Source: Capitulum mitella (Eukaryota > Arthropoda > Thecostraca > Pollicipedomorpha > Pollicipedidae). Taken from it: a DNA stretch of 64,000 nt. A model generated the notes under the pieces. It searched no databases. It saw only the letters and a program-made list of their open reading frames with translations, and was not told the DNA's origin. Of this stretch, positions 6,106 through 58,052 are shown piece after piece; the stretch's first letter is position 1, and each line of letters opens with the position of its first letter. The stretch covers positions 9,863,538-9,927,537 of the forward strand of contig CP099850.1 in NCBI GenBank assembly GCA_030062745.1, read 5' to 3'. A program made the position numbers and the translations under genes.

Positions 6106-7176
6106 ACAAGGCATCTGAGGCATTCCACGACAAATGGACACGGCAAAGGGGTGGTTGTCGACCCTTATGCCTCGGATTTTGACCGCTGTATTGGGTTTTC
6201 GTATACCCTGAATTCACCCGCGCAAATTTTTGATCAGGTCAACGGTTCAGAAGTTTTAGCCTCCAGCATTTCAGAGAGGGCACGCTGCAAGGGTTTGTTC
6301 GGTGGCCGATAACCAAGTGAAATATTATTGGAAACCTAAATATATGAACTTTTTTCAACCTGGAAATGCTCAAGAAAGCCGTTACTGCTCAAACTTTTTA
6401 GATGTAATAAATAACAAAGAAGTTATGATGTGGCCTCAGGTACTGTGATCTCCGGTGACCTTGACGCCCATAAAATTGTTTAAGTCTGTTCAGCCAGAAT
6501 GGAAGGTGCATGTGTTGGATTGATATATACCAGATAAAAGAAGTGCCGTTTTTGTTATGAATGCGCATTTTGGAAGCGGAAATTTTGCCATATCTGAAGG
6601 TTCTTGAGACTAAGAACTAAGAGAACTAAGAGAGCTACGAAGATGAAAATGACACCAATCAAAGGCTCTTTACATTTCATGAAGAATGAACGCATACTTA
6701 TTCATTCTGAGTAAACATTGTATGGTCAGGAGGTCAAATAAAGTCATGTTATGGCATCCAAAATCTGTGGGCAACTAAAGCAAGCGTGATGGTCCTTTAA
6801 ATCGATTTTGAACCCTGAGCAGGCCAAAAAAGGCCAAAAACAATTGCCCGTTCTAAAGCAGATAAGTTGTTCCGTTGAGGTCATGTCGGGTCAGGTCAAA
6901 AGCCATTGGAACATAACAATGACCTGTCTCGAAGCTGGTACTCAGATAAAGTTACTTCAAGCATACATTTTGGAATCACAGTTGTAAATGTTTGGTCACG
7001 CAAAACAATCCGGAAAAAGATTAATATGGGTCATCTAAGGTCAAATCGGGTCAACGAGGTGAGGTCAGGTATCACAAAATTCGCACCTCAAGATGGGGTA
7101 ATGGTGCGAATGTCAAACAAACACCATTTGATCTCTGTTATCATGCTGATGTTTTTGAATGGCATGGAAATCGTCA

Positions 7177-7204
7177 AGGTCAGGTCAGGTCAGGTCAGGT
7201 CATG
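7177..7204 (+). repeat. (AGGTC)n pentamer tract
   Basis: Five consecutive AGGTC units near the centre of the palindrome. The hexamer AGGTCA is also the classic nuclear-receptor half-site, but at five-base periodicity these overlap rather than form normal direct repeats. Confidence 0.85.
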
Positions 7205-7238
7205 TCAAGGACGACCGTGGGAAAGAAGTGCCTGCTTC

Positions 7239-7277
7239 GTTCAAAATCAAACACCGTGGCACCGTGGTGTTTCGAAC
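7239..7277. repeat. Hairpin at the centre of the palindrome
   Basis: AAACACC at 7249-7255 pairs with GGTGTTT at 7266-7272, flanked by a second pairing GTTC/GAAC. The 10-nt loop is centred on about 7260, the same axis as the kilobase-scale arms. Confidence 0.75.
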
Positions 7278-10200
7278 GAGACATATTCATTTTGCATGGC
7301 ATCGTTAACCTGACCTGTTTTGATTGAACCTAACTAACTTAACCTGACCTGACTTCCACGTCATTTAAGAATACATTCAAATGAGTATTACGGACAAATG
7401 GCGTTTCTCGTCACTCGCACGTAAAGTTGCCATATTCGACCTCGGGTGACCTGATATGACCTAAGATGACCTACACTGATCTTTTTCCGAGTTTTTCCAT
7501 TTGTAACCAGACATGACCAGACACCAGACAAGCAGCAAAGAGATTTCCCAACGTACGGTTGAGGTAAATTTACTTGAGTGCCAGTTTCGAGACCAATCAG
7601 TGCTGTGTTCCAATAACCGTTGACCTGAGTTGGCATGACCTGAGAAGAAGAAGATATCTTTTTGACAATGAAAAGAACGTTTCTGGCCCTTTTTGGGCTG
7701 CTCTGTACTCAACACGAATTTATAGAATCGTCACATTTGCTCAAATTGCCCACAGATTTGAGACATCATAACATGACCTGGTTTGACCTCCTGACCTTAC
7801 AATATTGACTCAGAGTCAGTAAGTATGTTTTCATTCCCCATGAAATTCGACGACCTTTCGATTGGTGTCACTCTTAATCTCCGTAACCCTATTAGATCTC
7901 GAGATCCTGTTGTGGGGTATGGAAAACCTTCGAACATGATAAAATTTGCGCTCTCATGATGAGCTTTTGTACCAAAAACGCTATTTCTCGAATTTATTAT
8001 ATATGACAAAAATATGGACCTTCCATTCTGGCTAAACAAAATTTAGCATTTAACGGCATGGAGGTCAGCAAAGGTCACGTGACGTGAGGTCATACCGTAA
8101 CTCCTTTATTATTTATCATAAAAAAGTCTGATCAGCACCGGTTTTCTTGAACCTTTACGAGTTCAAAAATGTCCGGATATTTCGATTTAGAATAACATTC
8201 CACATAGTTATCGGCCATGAGCAAATCTTTGCAGCGTGACGTCGCCGAAATGCCGGAGGCCATAACTCAGACACTGTTGACCTGATGAAATTACAATTTG
8301 CATACGTGGATTCAGGGCATAAGAAAGCCAAATACACCAATTTTGGTCCCGACCTGAGGCATGAGAGTGCCGCCCCTTTTACGATTTGGAATGGGGAATC
8401 ATCTACTGGATTGGGGAGAGATTATGGGGAATGGGAGTGGAATCATCTACCGGATTAAAGTGAGAGAATACTGCAAATACGCCTTGGAAGACACGTTATA
8501 TTACAAACGCAAGCATCGTAGAATTCAGTAAAGGTATGCAACGTCCGATTTCACGTTATTCTATCCATGGGTGGGCTTGAATCGTCAAAATCATTCCTTT
8601 CATTTGATGGCAGTGGTGGTGATGATCATGGTTACGACGATGAATCGCAATGATAACAAACCTGTTGGCAATGCGAATTTATATATTTTCCAAATGTGAG
8701 CCGGCATAGTTTACCAAAGCAGCGTGCCGTGCAGACAGCTGCCACTAAACGGATCCTTGAGCAAACATCGGCCTGGCTTTTCTGATACCCATTGCAGATA
8801 CGGCAATTCCCCTGCTCCCAGAGCGGGCGATGGTATTGCAGGACCGTGTCGCGACAGCAGAAATGCCACCGACCCGAACACGGCAACGGACATCGGCCAA
8901 ACCCGGCAGCGAAAACGTAAATATCATCACCCGGTGCAGCAAAACTCGATTCCGCACAATCCGTGCAACTAGCGATCGGCTTCTTCTGACTCCAAATCCA
9001 GAAGCATTCCTGGGAAAGACTTCCAGGAAGAATTTCCTCCAGCCCCAGTGTACCCAGTCGCATCTAGGTGCGAACGGCAGTGATTCCGCACCCGAACTAG
9101 AAACAGCACGACACGAGGGGGCGCCGTATTCCCAGCTCGTAGGACCTGGCGGGGCTCCGCCCAGCCCCAGCCGGAGCATCAGCGCACGTGCATCGGTCAC
9201 TCACGGTTCCGTCATGGTGTCTGTCACCGCTGCGTGTTCTCCTCCCTGCTTCACTGGCGTCACTGAGGCGCTCGGGGTCACGACGCTGAGGCAAGGTCGG
9301 ACGGCGGACACCGCGGCGCGCGCAGACGCGGGAAACCCGATAACGGTGGCCTGCAGCACGCCAGACGCCGGGCGACGACTCGGGCGTGGAGGACCACTGC
9401 GAGCGGACCGTGAAGCACGGGCCACCAGCGTAACCCTTCTGTGAAAGACCGGCCAGAGGCCTAGGACAATACTGTCCTGTTTACCGTTGGTTATTTTTAG
9501 GCGCGGAAACTATGATGGACCTTATGGCCTGTATTTTCCACAGATGTTATAGGTGACGAGGACAGATCAAATACTATTTGCTATTTGTGATGATTGTTGT
9601 TTTCGGGTTTAAAAATGCGGATTCAGAATGACCGAAACTGTTTATGTCAGGAGGGATCAGCAAAGCTTTGATGTCAGATTGACGAAATTGCGGTAAACCT
9701 TTGTGGAAAAAATATTTTTTGCTTTGCCCGATCCTTTGGCTACTTGCTTAGGATCATGGAAATACAACATGGCAAATTTTAATTGACTCCTCAACGCTCC
9801 TACTACGGAAGCAAGATTTTCCCGAGGCGTTATGGTGTAACACAAACGTTTGATGGCCATTAGAGCAAGAAACGACGTATTGCAGCCTTTCACGGTTAAA
9901 AATGGCGTTTCCCGTCTGTTAGTGACTCTTACGAGTTCGATTAAACGAAAAACGAATTGCGATGGAGTTTCTATTAAGGCGATAGAAACAATCGATACTT
10001 AAGAAATCAAAACCGTTCTCTTTTGCTTATGGCACGAAATGAAGGCAAACTTTGTAGTTTACTCCTCATTCGACAACACGGAACACAAAAGGCGACTGGC
10101 GGCCGGGAGTTGGAGCTGGTGTTGTGCAGCAGAAGTGACATTTCGCCCGTGACACCGTCGCTTTTGCAAAACATTGTTCGTGTAGCTTTCAGTGCCCTTT

Positions 10201-29107: not shown

Positions 29108-32100
29108 CTAGTCGTCAGATCGTTGTGGTCTCCGCACGCAGGCCGTGAACGTGGTCTCGCTGATTTCACGTTTGATTGGGGAATGTGTAAGGCATCCCTG
29201 AAATGGAACAAAATAATATTTTAGTCTTATATGGGCCTGCGACGGAAACCACTGAGTCTCTTTTGGACTGCCGTTGCCTCTCAGCAGGATTTCATAACTG
29301 TCCCTACCTGTCCGTAGCTCGATTCTACTGGCTCCGACCAGGGCACGACGTAGCTGTTCTTTGTCAGAAGCAGCTCGGTCCTGTTGAAGTCCTCGTGCCC
29401 CATGATCAGGTACTCCCTGTCGGACCAAGGCGGCTTACATTAATGACTTTATCCCTGAGCTGAATTTTAAGAACGCCGTATCCATCTTGGCCTGTGGAAG
29501 GGTACGACGTCAATGGTGCCTGCTGAGCATCGGTGTAAAACCCGAAGGAGATGTGACCGAATGGATCACGGCTCACCCCAGGACGCCCAAGGCTGGGCAG
29601 AAAATTGTTCCTTTTATTCCCGAAAGGGGGGATTCGCCCCCCTGAGATCTCGAGGACTACACATCTGATTTCATCGTAACATACGGCAATCAGTTTACCA
29701 TGACGTGACATACATTTTTTACGAAAGAAACTCTCAGAATCTTGAAAGGGGTGAATACAGAGGGAAGAGTCAAAACTGGGGTATTTTTGACTTGTTTGAA
29801 CTCCGTTATTCATTGGCCGACTTTGATGCAATTGGCATGAATCAAGAGCTTATCAGGAAGACTTTTTGCATCGGCCCATATGTTTGAAATTTTGAGAAAA
29901 TTCAGGGGCGTTGACAGAGTTCTGAAATTTGGAGGAATGTTTCCTTAAGAAATGGGTTAACATTAAAGTTTAGTTTCTTTAGCCGTTACTAGTCATGTCA
30001 TGCTTAAAAGCACGAACAGCATCACATTGTTTTTTTTTATAATGTTCGCGTAGGCGGCGCCAAGGACAAGAAAAGGGGAAATGACATGGTCACATGTTTA
30101 TCAGGCCAGCTTACGACCTTTGGCGTCAGATGACCTCAGATGACCTCAGATTCACATGGAATAACCTTGAGTGCATTTCATGGTGTGTTCCAAAAACGTT
30201 CTCATTATTTGGATTCTCTATATTTCTTGTTTATGGCTGTCGTGATATAGGGTACACGCACAGACATTTTAGGTCATAGCTCCGTGATCCGACCTGTCGT
30301 CAACCTGAAACTTGGTATATATGTAGGGGACACTCTTCGAAACCATACATATACCCCGATTTTTTTTATTTCGAAAATAAGCGTCAAAAGCGTTTATATA
30401 AAACCTAATTTTGACTTCTGAGCTTGACCTGACTATATCAACTAGCCTCATATTAGCACAATTATTTTTATATGCTTGCCCAGTTGTTTACCTTTGCGTC
30501 CTTATAAAGTCTTAGACTCTATCGTGAGGACTTAATATTTGGCAGCCATTTTTCGTTTACCTTCAGCAGTGTCAAAAATGACTTGAGGTTCCTCCCAAAA
30601 ACATGGCCTGGCTCCGCCCCTAAACAAAAAAAGAATTATAAGATTTTGACGGAGTACGTAAAAGGTAGGAAAAGCGACCGGGTCTCCTGAAGCTGCTTCA
30701 AAAAACCTGGCAATGGCGAGCAAAATCCGGAGCTAGCGGGAGGGGTAGGATTTAGCTCCCCTCGCCGGGAATAGGGTTAAGGCATCAAAAGTCCACACCA
30801 GGAACGTTTGGTATGTTGGTGATTTGACTAAAAAGGTATATTTTTATCGCATCGCCTGGCCCCCAAAAGAGATTTGGTCCCCCAAGACGGCCGACTGGTT
30901 CCGTCCTGGCGAACAGTATCATCTTCTTTGAGCGATGAAAGACATTTGTCACGAGTGATGGAGTGAATGGAAGAACGCACAAAACACGAAACATATTTTC
31001 AGTGACATCAATCTTTTGCACATAACATTTGGACTATTTCGTTTTTTTTTAGTCTTCCGTATAGCAGAGTCCTAAATTTGTCCTACTATGTGTGCTACAG
31101 AAGTTGAGAGAGGGCAGAGAAGTCTGATTAGCTCGAAATATTTGAACGCAGACAGAAAATATGCCGGGAATACTGACTTGCCGGACTCCAGCTCCGGACA
31201 CTTGCAGGATGTGTTGGTGCGGATGAAGCTGATGTTGTTGCGCACGAGCTCTACGATGCCTTCCCGGTAGATGTCCAGCACGGTGACGCTCAAGATAGAT
31301 GGGAAGTGGGATGGCGCAAATCCCTCCATGCGTGCCTTAATCGCTGCAGGGACAAGGTTGACCTGGTAATACGTTATATAAGAAATACATTATTTCGGAT
31401 GGCTTACAAGCCTCTAAAAGAACAATGCAGTAATCTTACGAGGAAGGTTCTTAAACCGTATTTCCAACAAATATAGTAGGAATCTCACGGCCAGTTGCAA
31501 AGTTTCCTGGTCCCGTTCAACAACCTGAGAATAGCACGTCCATGCAGCTCACAGTGATGGCAATCAACAGTCATCACTACGTGGAACAACTGGCCATCGC
31601 GGCTTTAAATAATAGGAGCTCATAGGTGCTAAGCTTATAGCGATCGCAGCTGACAGGAATGGAAGCTTACAGTAATCGTAGTCCCGATTGTCCATGAGCT
31701 TTGTCGTTGGCTTCTCTGGCTGGTGCTTCTTCAGGCAGTGACAATTATCTGCAAACAAGACAAGGAAAAATCCGGTTATTTATGACTTGAACACGTGACA
31801 GCCATCTTTCCAAATGGTGAACTGGGCCAGCTCAGAGCCTGCTACTTAAGAGAGTGCTGAAAACGACATAGGTCTTATTTGCAAACTTCTGTCGCAGTGC
31901 AAGTACCCGTTTTCATAGGAAATCATACACAAAAAGGCACATCTGTATTTGTAAAACGCATCACATACGTAGATTTGGCATGTTTTGCTATGCTGTAAAA
32001 TGTCACTCACGTCATTTCCTTATATCAAAGATGTCTTCTAATATTTCTATCGAGGTTTCACTGAATAAATTTTGCCACATGGACGGTCAGAAGCCCACCA

Positions 32101-42721: not shown

Positions 42722-45039
42722 CTGCCGAGGTCACGCGCGTGACGTCACGAGAGAGGGGGGGGGGGCAGCGACCGCGCCGAGATGGCGGGCGGCCGAGGGT
42801 CTGTCTGACGTCAGCGACGTGATGTCACAAGGTAGCGGGCAACATACCCGGACGGCAGGGGAGGCAGTGGTAGCGGGAGGCCTCCGATGTTAATGAATAC
42901 CAGCAGCGACTAAACCGGAACGGATAAACGGCCAGTACTGATACTCTGAGTTTGAAATTAGTGGCTTGGCATGACACGGCAGGCTACATAGGCTGATACG
43001 AATGTCAGAGGTGGCGACCAGCGTTTTTATCGCGACCAGATCACGGCTACCGCAGAACATTATTATTGCACGACATTATGGCAGGTCAGTGTTACAAGAT
43101 TTTGGGCTCTACCGGTTTTACGTCTGTTCGCAAGAAAAATGCAAACAAGGCTGTCTGCTCTTTTACCTTAAGAGATTCTTTTACACGTGGTAACTTCCAG
43201 CATGCATCCGCACAAGACGTTTCGGTCGGAAAAGACCAAGCACCGCTATTCCAGTGGCACCATCTATACGGCTAGAGCCGCCTACGGATTGTGTTTCGAG
43301 CACCGTCCGCTCTCCGTCTATAACATTTGTCCGTTGTAACACCACTACGCACCGACATTGCGGCACACACTGAAAAATGTCATTGTTGAAATAGAAGTCA
43401 CACCAAGTGACGTTACCGCGCTGGGACACGGGAGTTCTTCTCGAGCTTTGTTTGAGAACATCTGAACAGTCAATAGTCGAATCACGCGACTGCAGCAACA
43501 CATCTCTGGAGCAAGAGTCGTTTTTTTTTGTTCCATACACCAGAACACGTACTTAAATAAGCATTACTTCTCAACACTGTGGCCTAGATGTAATCCACGA
43601 GGGTAAACATGCAAATGGTGAACAGTAATTTTTGAACAAACGAAGGCTATAAGTCTCTGGGATGACAACTACGTTACTTCTTGCAATGTGCGTCTGCATG
43701 ATTCCACAGCTGAAGCTTTGTCTTGGATAACGACAGGCTGTAAGCGTCGTTATCTCATGCGTCGTCAAAGGATGCTAAAAACAGACGGTTAAAATTCATA
43801 CGACAATCATGTAGACAGAAAAAACTGAACAAAGGCGTAAAACACTATCAAATCGTTTGCAGCGGACGCAGGAATTGAAAACAGCAAGTGAGAGAAGAAA
43901 GAGATAAAAGGCAATTGCTCTAGAATGAGATAATTTCGCAGACTAACATGCGTTTGTCCACCTCTCTTCTCATGCGAAGGAGTGACGAGTGATGACTTGT
44001 CTCACAGGAGGGGAACAACGCGCCGTGATCAATCCTCTCGTCTGAAATTCCACCACATTTTCCAGCCTAGATATGACTTGCAAAACTGGGTCTCTTCTTT
44101 TTTTGTCCGGTGCTTGCTGCTTTGGATGTGATTACCGAATACTGAGAATGACTGTTTGAAACGAACGCACTGCTATCACCGCACCCACTGATATCTGGCG
44201 TCAGTCAACTAATAACAGACGTAGCGGTTGCCATGCCACATAACTCTGAATCACACTTCCTCTCCAGGGCATTCCAGGACAGATCGACCATCAAAAACGT
44301 AAACTGACACCATGCATCTCGGACTTCGATGAAAATGCATATATAAGGTGCTGAATGAACCTTGCTGTACAAAATTCAGCTCGATTGGAGCAACAGTTAC
44401 TGAGTTATAGCCTCCGGCATTTTCGTGAGCCGACGACGGTGCATGCCACAACAGTGCATGGCTATACTTGACGGTTGATGACTCCGTAAAAATATTTTAA
44501 ATCCTAGAAAATTGCATATTTTCTGACTTGCAATGAATTGCGAGTATTTTGGTACGCCCAGATATGTTTATTTTACAATTCTGACAACGTGGTCGCGTGA
44601 CCTCCGTTGACCTGACATGACCCTGATATGAGGGAAGTGAAAATCGTATTATTTTTACTTTTCAGAATTGACTTTGGTAAATTGTCTTTGCATTGGGAGG
44701 TTTTGAAAGGTAGGTGTTTCCTATGAATATGTGTTTTTTCAGACTTAATTATAACCATTTTCTGGACTAGGCCCACAAAAGGGGTACGTCAATTTAATCA
44801 GGTACAATCACGGTAGCTTGGCTGCCTGAAATGCGTTTCAAAGGTCTCAGGAGCTGTTCAGTAGTAAAATCTCTTCGAGGACAGATGGAAGCTAATTTCA
44901 GTCCCTCTCGCCGTGGTGCTGTAAACCAGCCCGACCAAGTGTATGGGGTATGTGAGTTGCCAAGGAGACGACAGCGTGCTATTCTTTTTGGACCTCGTCG
45001 ATGACCAGTACGAGGACGACCGGTCGATCACATTGAGCC
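42722..45039. other. Intron or spacer DNA; nothing recognised except repeat traces
   Basis: A minus open frame at 43181-43540 has no recognisable domain. The segment at 44270-44450 shares the CTGAGTTAT(A/G)GCCTCCGGCATT block with the arms of the palindrome at 6110-8395, and GACCTGACATGACC at 44610 is of the same family. If the exon at 47809 belongs to the receptor, this is part of its first intron. Confidence 0.45.
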
Positions 45040-45623
45040 ATGGGAAGATTTTCTGGCAAAGCTAAGTCAAAGAATATCTCGGCTAACCAAACATCCCTTC
45101 ATTTCGAAAAGCAAAAAGCCGTGTCCTTCAGGGATCTGAACAAATCTTTGTCTGCGGGAGAAATGGTAGTTGCAGGCGATTTTGTTGGAAAATTACTCCC
45201 TCGTCGTGCGAGGCTAGGCCCGGGCTTACACTGGAATGTCACCCAAGCTACGGCACACCCATCCGTCGCCTCTTGGCAGGAAGACGACACGGCAGTCCAC
45301 CAGAGTTTCTGCATGATATCCGATGGGATGAAGCATAATGTGGGCAAGGTTCATGTTTTCCTGGAGCAGTTAGCCCCAGCGCCGAAGGCTCAGATTCCAG
45401 GTCTGCACAAAATGTATTACATTTTGGACGGATGCGCGGCTCATTACAATAACAGATTTAATTTGGCCGGCACTTGTTTCTTCTATGATGATTTCGGTTT
45501 GGCCTGTGAATGGCATTTCTTCGAGGCGTCTCATGAGAACAATGTCTGAGACGGCATCGGGGGACAACCAAGATAGCTACAGTCAGAGGAAGTCTGGCCC
45601 GTCCACATCAAGCAAAAATTTAG
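45040..45623 (+). pseudogene. Decayed transposon-associated protein (DGCA.HYNN / DFGL..EWHFF family)
   Basis: A 169-codon frame from 45040 to 45549 carries SAGEMVVAGDF, GLHWNVTQATAHP, MISDGMKHN, MYYILDGCAAHYNN and DDFGLACEWHFFEASHENN in order. This is the signature series of an uncharacterised, mobile-element-like family with many copies in arthropods and cnidarians, whose members continue after the EWHFF motif with a short CDG-GG segment. Here that Cys position is a TGA stop (45547-45549), and within the following G run (45559-45563) the frame shifts. The continuation reads TTKIATVRGSLA in another phase to a stop at 45621. It is therefore broken. Function of the family is unknown. It lies on the opposite strand from all the genes here. 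Confidence 0.7.
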
Positions 45624-47808
45624 ACGCCACAGGCGGTGTTCGAATTCCTTACCAACAAACTAATTTCAAGCATTCATTTAAGTGTAGTGAGTCAAGAGAA
45701 AGCATCGTGAGTGCTAGAGTCACCACAGCAGCGCTTCGCGATGCCGGTCACGGTGACAGAGACGAAAAATTTGCACGCGTTTTCTACCGTCGATCAGTAC
45801 ATGATGGTTGTACAAGAGGTGCCATTCAGGAACACAGGGTGCATTGTACGAGAGTGCAAGTCCGCACACTCGGGTAGAGCAGTGAGTGCTACTGATTTAT
45901 GGTAGCGCACCAGGTCTTGCGCTTGTGTTGAGTGTTCTGTAGTATGTACCTTCCTCTGGCAGACCAAAGAGCAACATTTTTTTGTTAATGTTGTGTGATG
46001 CATTTGGAATATGCAGTACGCCGTGGATTTAATAAGTGTTTATGAAAACCTCATTATTTTTGACGAATTCCGAGTAACATAAATTGTCCCGAGATACTTA
46101 TGAACAAGCTCATTTCTTCGCTATTCTGGAGGGTGAATGAGATACGGAATGATTTAACGGCCAAATACAAAAAGGGGCGTAACTAAGGACGAAAAATAAC
46201 ATTTATAGAAAACACCTATGTACGAAAATGCGTCTGTTTAATGATAACCTATCAGCGTTAATTTTCAAAAACAAGAATTGTTAAATATTAACTTCCCTCG
46301 TGCCAAGGTCATGTAATGTGACCAGAGGTCACCAGGCGACGTGTTCAAATTTCGAGAAACTAAACAATGTAAATGGCAAAAAAAAGATTTCGTTCAATGC
46401 AAAACCAATAATGTATGGTTTTCCAACAATCAAATCGTTCGTGTTCGCGATATAGCCCATCAGACAGAAGCATTCATCGTGACCTCATGAAAACGCCGCA
46501 AACTATAAGTCGATAATCATTGCTGTGAGCGAGCTGAAAGCTGCACAGGTGAATTTGGAGCATTAGGTTACTCCAAGGACAAATCTTTACCAGGATTTGA
46601 GATATGGAGTGTTACCCCTTGCACGATCTGTGTTGGAACTGCCTGTCAGCCATCTGATATGATTTTTTTTAAAAATGTTGCCTTTTTACTTAGAACGGAT
46701 GGAACGTTACCGATGACTAGCAGGTTGTTCATGCTTCACGGAAAATGTTAGTGACAGGAAAAATGCCGGTATGTTTGTTTTATCCGTTTATATTTACCGG
46801 TAAATTTATCTGAGTTATATTTCATTTGGGAAGAACCATCTGATCCTGCAGACGGTCACAGTGAAACTGACTGACCCATGAACCCTACGTTACGGATCAT
46901 TCTCTGCAGGCTTGGTCAACTGACGAAGACAACAGCTGATGTGCCTTTCACCGACGTCCGACCAAGTGTTAGGGATCAGACGGTGCGGGCAGGGTTACCT
47001 GACCCACAGACAGGCTGTAACCTTGACCGACCTCTGAACCGGGCGTGGTGGATCTCATGGCCCTGAATGAGCCAGTTAGGTCTTCCTGAAGCAGTGTATC
47101 GGCGAGTTGAGCCTCTTCACATTCGTCGCTTGCCCGGCCGTCACTCCTGCGGACAGACGTTGCAGACAGAGGTTTATCTATGGGATCATAATACCCCCTT
47201 TATCTTGAAAACATACGTGGCGCGAAAAAGCAAAACGTCGTCAGAAAGACCTTGGCAAGAGTTGGCTAGAAGCACTCAGTTCTTCTGAAATCAGGCAAAT
47301 ATTAAGGTTCTGCATTCACCACATGAAGGTCAAACAATAAACAAGGTCACCACATAGCCTAGGTCAAAGTTATGACGACTATTAGTAGTGCGTTTGTAAT
47401 GTTTGTTGAATTATCCGCCTTCATATCGTTAATCAGATATCGGACGACTGAAATTCCATGACATCCATTTTTGTCATCGAGAATAGCCTTCCCTTCCTCG
47501 TGACGCTCACGCCCCAAACATTTTTCACAAGTCGTCTGGGCACCGGACGTTTCTTCTTTATCCTTGTGCAAGATCTTTTCTTAAGAAAAGGGGCTTCATT
47601 TGTCCACCAAAAGCAAGGAGACTAAAATATTACGAACTGTATACAAAGAGGGTATGACTGTAGGTTTTATCAGTTGTGTTTCCGCAAGGTGTCTGCAGAG
47701 AAAAGAACTGGAGCATATTTAAAAAAAATCAAACTAGATTAGATTGGGGTAAATAACATACCTCTGGCTCCACAGTCGCAAGCTCGGTAGTTTTCGTCGT
47801 TTGCTTAC

Positions 47809-57093: not shown

Positions 57094-58052
57094 TTATTGA
57101 CCGATTTTGATAAGTGGCATGAATCGAGAGCTCACTGATGACACTTTTTCTTCGGCCTATATGCTTATAACTTGGGGAGGATTTAAAGGCGTTCTCAAGG
57201 CCTGAAAAACGGGAGATATATTTTTCGGAAACCGAATTAACATAAACGCTTGATACCCTTTTTTAGACTTCTTTAGCCTTTTTATACCTACGAAGAACAA
57301 ATCGCTTTGCGTTGCCTATACAGTGTTAGCATAGGCAGCGCCAAGGGCATCAAACGGGGCAACTTCATGGTCGCATGTTCATTCGCAAAGGTCAGCTCAC
57401 GACCTTTAACTTCAGATGACCTCAGAATCACAAGTAATGGCATCGGGTTCACTTCATAGCGTCTCAAAACGATTTCATGCATTTAAATAAACTATATTTG
57501 CAAAAGTCCCGGCTATGACAGACGTGGTATAAGGTACACGTGCAGACATTTTAGGTCATAACCCGAGAGCCGACCTGATATCAGTCTGAAACTTCAAACA
57601 CAAGTAGACGACACCGTACTGAGTCATCTGCACTCAGGTTTTTCCGTTTGAAAATAAGTGTTGAAATACTCGCATGTCAGACTTTGATTTTGGCCTCAGC
57701 CTGAGCTTGCAAATTGACCTCAGGCCAACAAAAACACTTTTGTATTGTTGTTTTGGTATAAACTTATACAATGATGTAACGTTTCAAGCTCCTTTTTAAG
57801 ACCCGTTTTTAACAGTAATTTCTGTTTTAATTCAGTGTTGCCAAAAATGGCCAAAAGTACCTCTCACAAACTTGACCTGGCTTCGTCCCTGCGAGGAAAA
57901 AATGAAAACGTGACAATATTCGTAAAAAGAATAGACAGGAAAATGGATCGCGTTTCGTAAAGCTGCTTCAAAATCCCTGGAAATGACAAGCAAAACACCG
58001 AAGGAAGAGGCTTCTGAAGCCCTCCACCCTCCAGCCGGGGATAGGGTTAAGA
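56828..58052. repeat. Dispersed 1.2-kb repeat, copy 2, interrupted by (TA)n
   Basis: Collinear relative of 29620-30782 through to the ATAGGGTTAAG end block. A pure TA run at 57039-57091 sits in this copy where the other has none. Confidence 0.85.

Follow-up and report, generated by a model that had tools for sequence, protein, structure and literature searches.

The palindromic element and its relative in the window

The window, the whole stretch of DNA analysed here, spans 64,000 nucleotides (C12:9863538-9927537) of the 477-Mb, 16-contig genome of Capitulum mitella, and copies were sought in that same genome. Its open reading frames (ORFs) include one with an Fz domain and another with an MSS51 C-terminal domain and a MYND finger. 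Positions 6115-8393 (forward strand) form a palindromic element, as delimited by arm alignment and consensus comparison. The left arm, a long terminal inverted repeat (TIR; 6115-7248, forward strand), and the right arm, which is the left arm inverted (7273-8393, reverse strand), join near 7260. Alignment of 6121-7257 with the reverse complement of 7261-8393 gave 821 identities, 245 mismatches and 138 gap columns, with a score of 840; up to 60 randomly placed centres within the window reached no more than 125. The 2.3-kb imperfect palindrome reported in a preliminary description of this DNA is thus real. In a self-BLAST of the window it was the sole inverted pair of at least 150 bp at E 1e-12, and no Rfam family matched it at the gathering score. 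The self-BLAST also returned a pair of 0.5-kb direct repeats (29812-30313 and 57096-57594, 67% identical).

A stem-loop lies on the symmetry axis as had been described (7249-7272, forward strand), with a perfect stem of AAACACC and GGTGTTT enclosing a 10-nt loop. The arms are rich in GGTCA, with a cluster at approximately 10-bp spacing in the left arm (7029-7067, forward strand), five tandem GGTCA at 7178-7202 (forward strand) and a cluster at 10-bp spacing in the right arm (7448-7472, reverse strand); the spacing of the first and last is also seen in the consensus. The window copy is 86.1% identical to the family consensus. Comparison of copy ends identifies its left terminal motif as a decayed GGGGCATTCCACGACAAATCGACA (6117-6140, forward strand), while at the right end the final 6 consensus bases are unrecognisable, and a target duplication could not be read at its own junctions.

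A second, more decayed relative is located at 44266-46643 (forward strand). The preliminary description had taken 44270-44450 for a single-arm fragment; arm comparisons reveal this to be part of one arm of a two-armed element, in which shorter inverted arms surround a non-palindromic middle. The left arm (44266-44761, forward strand) scores 201 against the consensus (shuffled maximum 109), the right arm (46031-46643, reverse strand) 177 (shuffled maximum 83), and the two arms score 205 against each other (shuffled maximum 78). Between them lies a 170-codon open frame (45037-45546, forward strand), a possible transposase remnant whose resemblance to transposases is presumptive. No Pfam family matched it above the cut-off, and a single-sequence structure prediction for the ORF near 45040 was unusable (pLDDT 36). 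As the window contains 24 ORFs of at least 150 aa, the length of this frame proves nothing.

Dispersed copies, common ends and target duplications

A search of the genome with the left arm yielded 74 matches from the 40 scored of 517 candidates, many of them forming inverted pairs 2.1-2.3 kb long. These were grouped into 38 places, of which L052 and L055 were fetched additionally and five were left out. The main set of 31 fetched loci comprises the 20 best with approximately 3 kb of flank, the window copy among them, and 11 with short flanks. Both arms are present in all 31. Inserts occur near the middle in L034 and L037; L049-L051 give partial alignments or extend past the fetched stretch. 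The insert at the palindrome centre of L034 (L034:4110-4955) is a Mos1-like mariner, with the Pfam domains Transposase_1 and HTH_48. L052, L053 and L055, whose terminal motifs lie more than 2.3 kb apart, were considered as autonomous copies and rejected, being palindromes with inserts instead. The insert of L055 holds a 348-codon open frame (L055:1608-2651), presumably pogo/Tigger-like.

The copies start with GGGGCATTCC and finish with GGAATGCCCC, in unrelated flanks. The terminal 24-mer occurs 115 times in the genome at up to 2 mismatches, with 0 occurrences of a reversed control. If the ends have drifted by approximately 14%, about one third would pass the 2-mismatch filter, suggesting very roughly 100-200 copies, sister families included in the count. 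Seven of eight exact terminal-motif sites missing from the left-arm match list were fetched (approximately 0.75 kb each, one end), and all seven run into palindrome-type arms, L056 for just 140 bp.

Target duplications were examined in 13 hand-chosen junction pairs from independent insertions, with a nested group (see below) represented once, by L029. L021 (right end decayed) and L037 (same insertion as L032) were omitted, as were L022, L045, L046 and L048-L051, where one end is missing, replaced or beyond the fetched stretch. In direct orientation, the 4-bp words beside the two ends agree at 38 of 52 positions, compared with a shuffled mean of 29.9 (P = 0.004 and 0.003 in two runs). Words shifted outward match at 11-15 of 52 positions, and inverted matching of the 4-bp words (27/52) shows no excess. 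For the same 13 insertions, no other word length tested (2, 3 and 5-10 bp) exceeded shuffled matching significantly, the lowest P being 0.16; 7-bp and 8-bp words match at 22/91 and 31/104 positions, respectively, no more than after shuffling. Exact 4-bp duplications flank L024 (TGCT), L033 (AGCT) and L042 (ATTA), while the flanking words of L028 match at 0/4 positions. The preferred target looks AGCT-like.

These data bear on whether the palindrome could be the chance product of a single-arm repeat having inserted twice, independently and in head-to-head orientation. The copies are strongly divergent, and single cases could mislead. However, the two arms are arranged about one common axis in 31/31 fetched loci, and the 4-bp duplication lies outside the arm pair. 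Two-armed copies, consensus arms and duplication together rule out chance head-to-head insertion for the fetched loci, and we regard it overall as vanishingly improbable. Lone arms in random arrangement, named in the preliminary description as the finding that would speak against a palindromic unit, are absent among these loci; with 40/517 candidates scored, lone arms may occur elsewhere.

An element at L054:180-3031 (C1:25632679-25635529) shares approximately 27-31 terminal bases with the palindrome family, in a one-base variant, and has an ATTA duplication on both sides. Its 0.65-kb inverted arms are 76% identical to each other and unlike those of the palindrome family in sequence. Its own 1.4-kb middle holds a very common repeat of approximately 475 bp (7060 candidates), and three ORFs of that middle gave nothing better than E 0.16 against Pfam. 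L054, likewise considered as a possible autonomous copy, belongs to a sister family, with other arms and its own middle. A tblastn search with ORF fragments from the second window element, L054 and other loci found no convincing link among the matches listed.

Flanking sequences reveal a second mode of spread. Ten of the 20 best loci have both flanks in common, L022 shares the right flank alone, and L032 and L037 have other flanks, common to those two. Homology of the shared right flank stops approximately 1.05 kb out at ...ATGTTAGCTGGG(TA), and that of the left flank persists in L034/L039 to 2.9 kb, where the fetched DNA ends. Within the shared-flank group the palindromes are 80-94% identical and most flank rows approximately 80-97%, with some L036 rows at 74-77%. 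Such shared, diverged flanks indicate that one palindrome insertion later multiplied within a larger repeat. At least 10 loci have the palindrome embedded in this larger repeat (L034, L039, L026 and others), whose right end abounds in ACGTTGT/ACAACGT-like words and in which no coding capacity was noticed. The shared flanks could suggest that the palindrome is a mere segment of this repeat, devoid of mobility of its own. In contrast, seven of L021-L040 lack a shared junction flank (L021, L024, L025, L028, L030, L033 and L040), and these seven, together with L041-L044 and L047, keep the common ends, each next to a 4-bp word of its own; L041-L047, with their short flanks, lie outside the shared-flank comparison. 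We consider it highly unlikely that the palindrome is such a segment.

Consensus, decay and the question of a maintained hairpin

The weighted family consensus is 2276 bp long, with arms of approximately 1.1 kb each. Aligned with each other, the consensus arms have 1042 identities over 1112 aligned bases, with 70 mismatches and 76 gap columns. These mismatches and indels indicate that the founder was already an imperfect palindrome. Divergence and GGTCA conservation were assessed on 14 solo copies, which have a mean identity to the consensus of 86.4% (approximately 14% divergence) and a mean pairwise identity of 76.2%, compared with a star expectation of 75.3%. This star-like divergence points to one old burst followed by decay. 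Along its length the element shows even identity to the consensus (0.83-0.89 per 100 bp). The window palindrome is a fossil, in neutral decay since one burst.

The perfect stem on the axis of the window copy raises the possibility that the palindrome is a kept hairpin, either as a dsRNA or small-RNA source or as a structural site. The claim that the central stem has stayed intact does not hold across the family: the exact stem occurs in 1/20 aligned copies, that of the window alone, and the centre is absent or interrupted in 3 others. At the axis the consensus reads AACACC...ATTTTT, although in a predicted fold the consensus arms nonetheless pair close to it. Paired changes were counted over positions identical in the two consensus arms, with 9 solo copies providing the main count. 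Positions changed in both arms numbered 181, with 161 expected; comparison of arms across copies gave a similar mean of 19.2 observed and 17.7 expected per pair, and identical changes amounted to 8.7 per copy within copies and 9.2 between copies. In 11 nested copies, which are not independent, 223 double changes were observed and 194 expected. Paired changes in the 9 solo copies thus lend no support to selection for pairing or to inter-arm conversion. The arms drift independently, and nothing indicates a maintained hairpin. GGTCA positions are slightly better conserved than matched bases, by 1.9-2.5 points (z 3.3 and 2.8), a small excess that may be due to alignment bias. This and the stem of the window copy favour a kept hairpin, while the absence of the stem from other copies, the flat conservation and paired arm changes no commoner within copies than between them argue against it, and we deem it very improbable.

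The consensus contains 41 GGTCA/TGACC, compared with a mean of 3.65 and a maximum of 10 in 200 single-base shuffles. Its left arm holds 18 GGTCA, with six pairs at exactly 10 bp. L054 shares the ends with just 14 GGTCA/TGACC in 2.85 kb by raw count, which suggests that dense arrays typify the palindrome family more than the shared ends do. AGGTCA is the half-site of nuclear receptors. It is conceivable, and in our view unlikely, that the family represents an undescribed cut-and-paste lineage, with GGGGCATTCC ends, a 4-bp AGCT-like target and an unclassified transposase, whose co-oriented GGTCA arrays, many of them AGGTCA at approximately 10-bp spacing, serve as multiple transposase docking sites or, more boldly, recruit host nuclear-receptor proteins.

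A probable two-TIR foldback transposon family

We consider it highly probable that the window palindrome represents a non-autonomous two-TIR foldback DNA transposon, in a copy that is now dead. This reading is based on both arms being present in every fetched locus, with common ends in unrelated flanks; on the 4-bp duplication in 13 insertions, the star-like divergence and the independent drift of the arms; and on the window relative with its shorter arms about a non-palindromic middle, together with the terminal bases and ATTA duplication of L054. As in two-TIR foldback elements, the arms make up most of the element, the dispersed copies have common ends and the duplication is of fixed length. 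Counting against a transposon, no candidate transposase (ORF 45037-45546 and the L054 ORFs) scored above the Pfam cut-off; the imperfect match of the consensus arms and the unreadable target duplication of the window copy also weigh against it. The interpretation in the preliminary description is partly supported as a whole: the palindromic copies, their common ends and their 4-bp duplication bear out an old mobile element of foldback type whose arms are complex and GGTCA-rich.

A related element whose middle was coding would have provided the transposase in trans; this enzyme would have recognised the terminal motif, and perhaps also the GGTCA repeats in the arms, and cut and pasted the whole palindrome. 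Loss of the middle from such an element, with two long arms left behind, is the probable origin of the palindrome. The hairpin would need no function after insertion.

The closest parallel is Galileo, of the P superfamily in Drosophila, whose two-TIR (2T) elements are, in the portions of the published accounts available, non-coding, approximately 1.7-2.2 kb long and equipped with TIRs of up to 1.25 kb (PMC3573991, PMC3688188). Its long TIRs are described as containing extra transposase sites (PMC3688188), an analogy by which the GGTCA arrays are putative transposase docking sites. In both cases terminal bases are common to families, long TIRs are family-specific and repeats occur within the TIRs; in contrast, Galileo as described has 7-bp target words rather than the 4 bp of the palindrome family, and a known P-type transposase with a THAP domain that likewise sets the palindrome family apart (PMC3573991, PMC3688188). 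Galileo or P superfamily membership, which calls for a 7-8 bp duplication, was rejected, words of these lengths showing no excess. The Mutator-type Tetris of Drosophila virilis (PMC4079207) and Tm1 of Meloidogyne (PMC3169594) are similarly foldback, non-autonomous and present as decayed copies, and differ, by the accessible parts of their descriptions, in 8-10 bp duplications and tandem or composite arms where the palindrome family has 4 bp and complex arms. A Mutator-type assignment was rejected, as 8, 9 and 10 bp words are without excess. A 4-bp target duplication occurs in other superfamilies besides Sola2 and is hence a weak criterion. Sola2 shares the 4-bp length with the palindrome family and, in the available part of its description, has TIRs of 12-21 bp and AT-rich duplications, unlike the mostly AGCT-like target seen here (PMC3627910).

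A literature search returned no palindrome family of this kind by name in what was found. The palindromes form a new family within the two-TIR foldbacks, a known kind of jumping DNA, and the window copy is a neat but ordinary fossil. Copy comparisons hold no sign of a kept function, and the 4-bp duplication sets the family apart from the foldback elements compared, which have 7-10 bp by the descriptions available. Kilobase palindromes here spread as dispersed units, and then travelled further inside a larger repeat.
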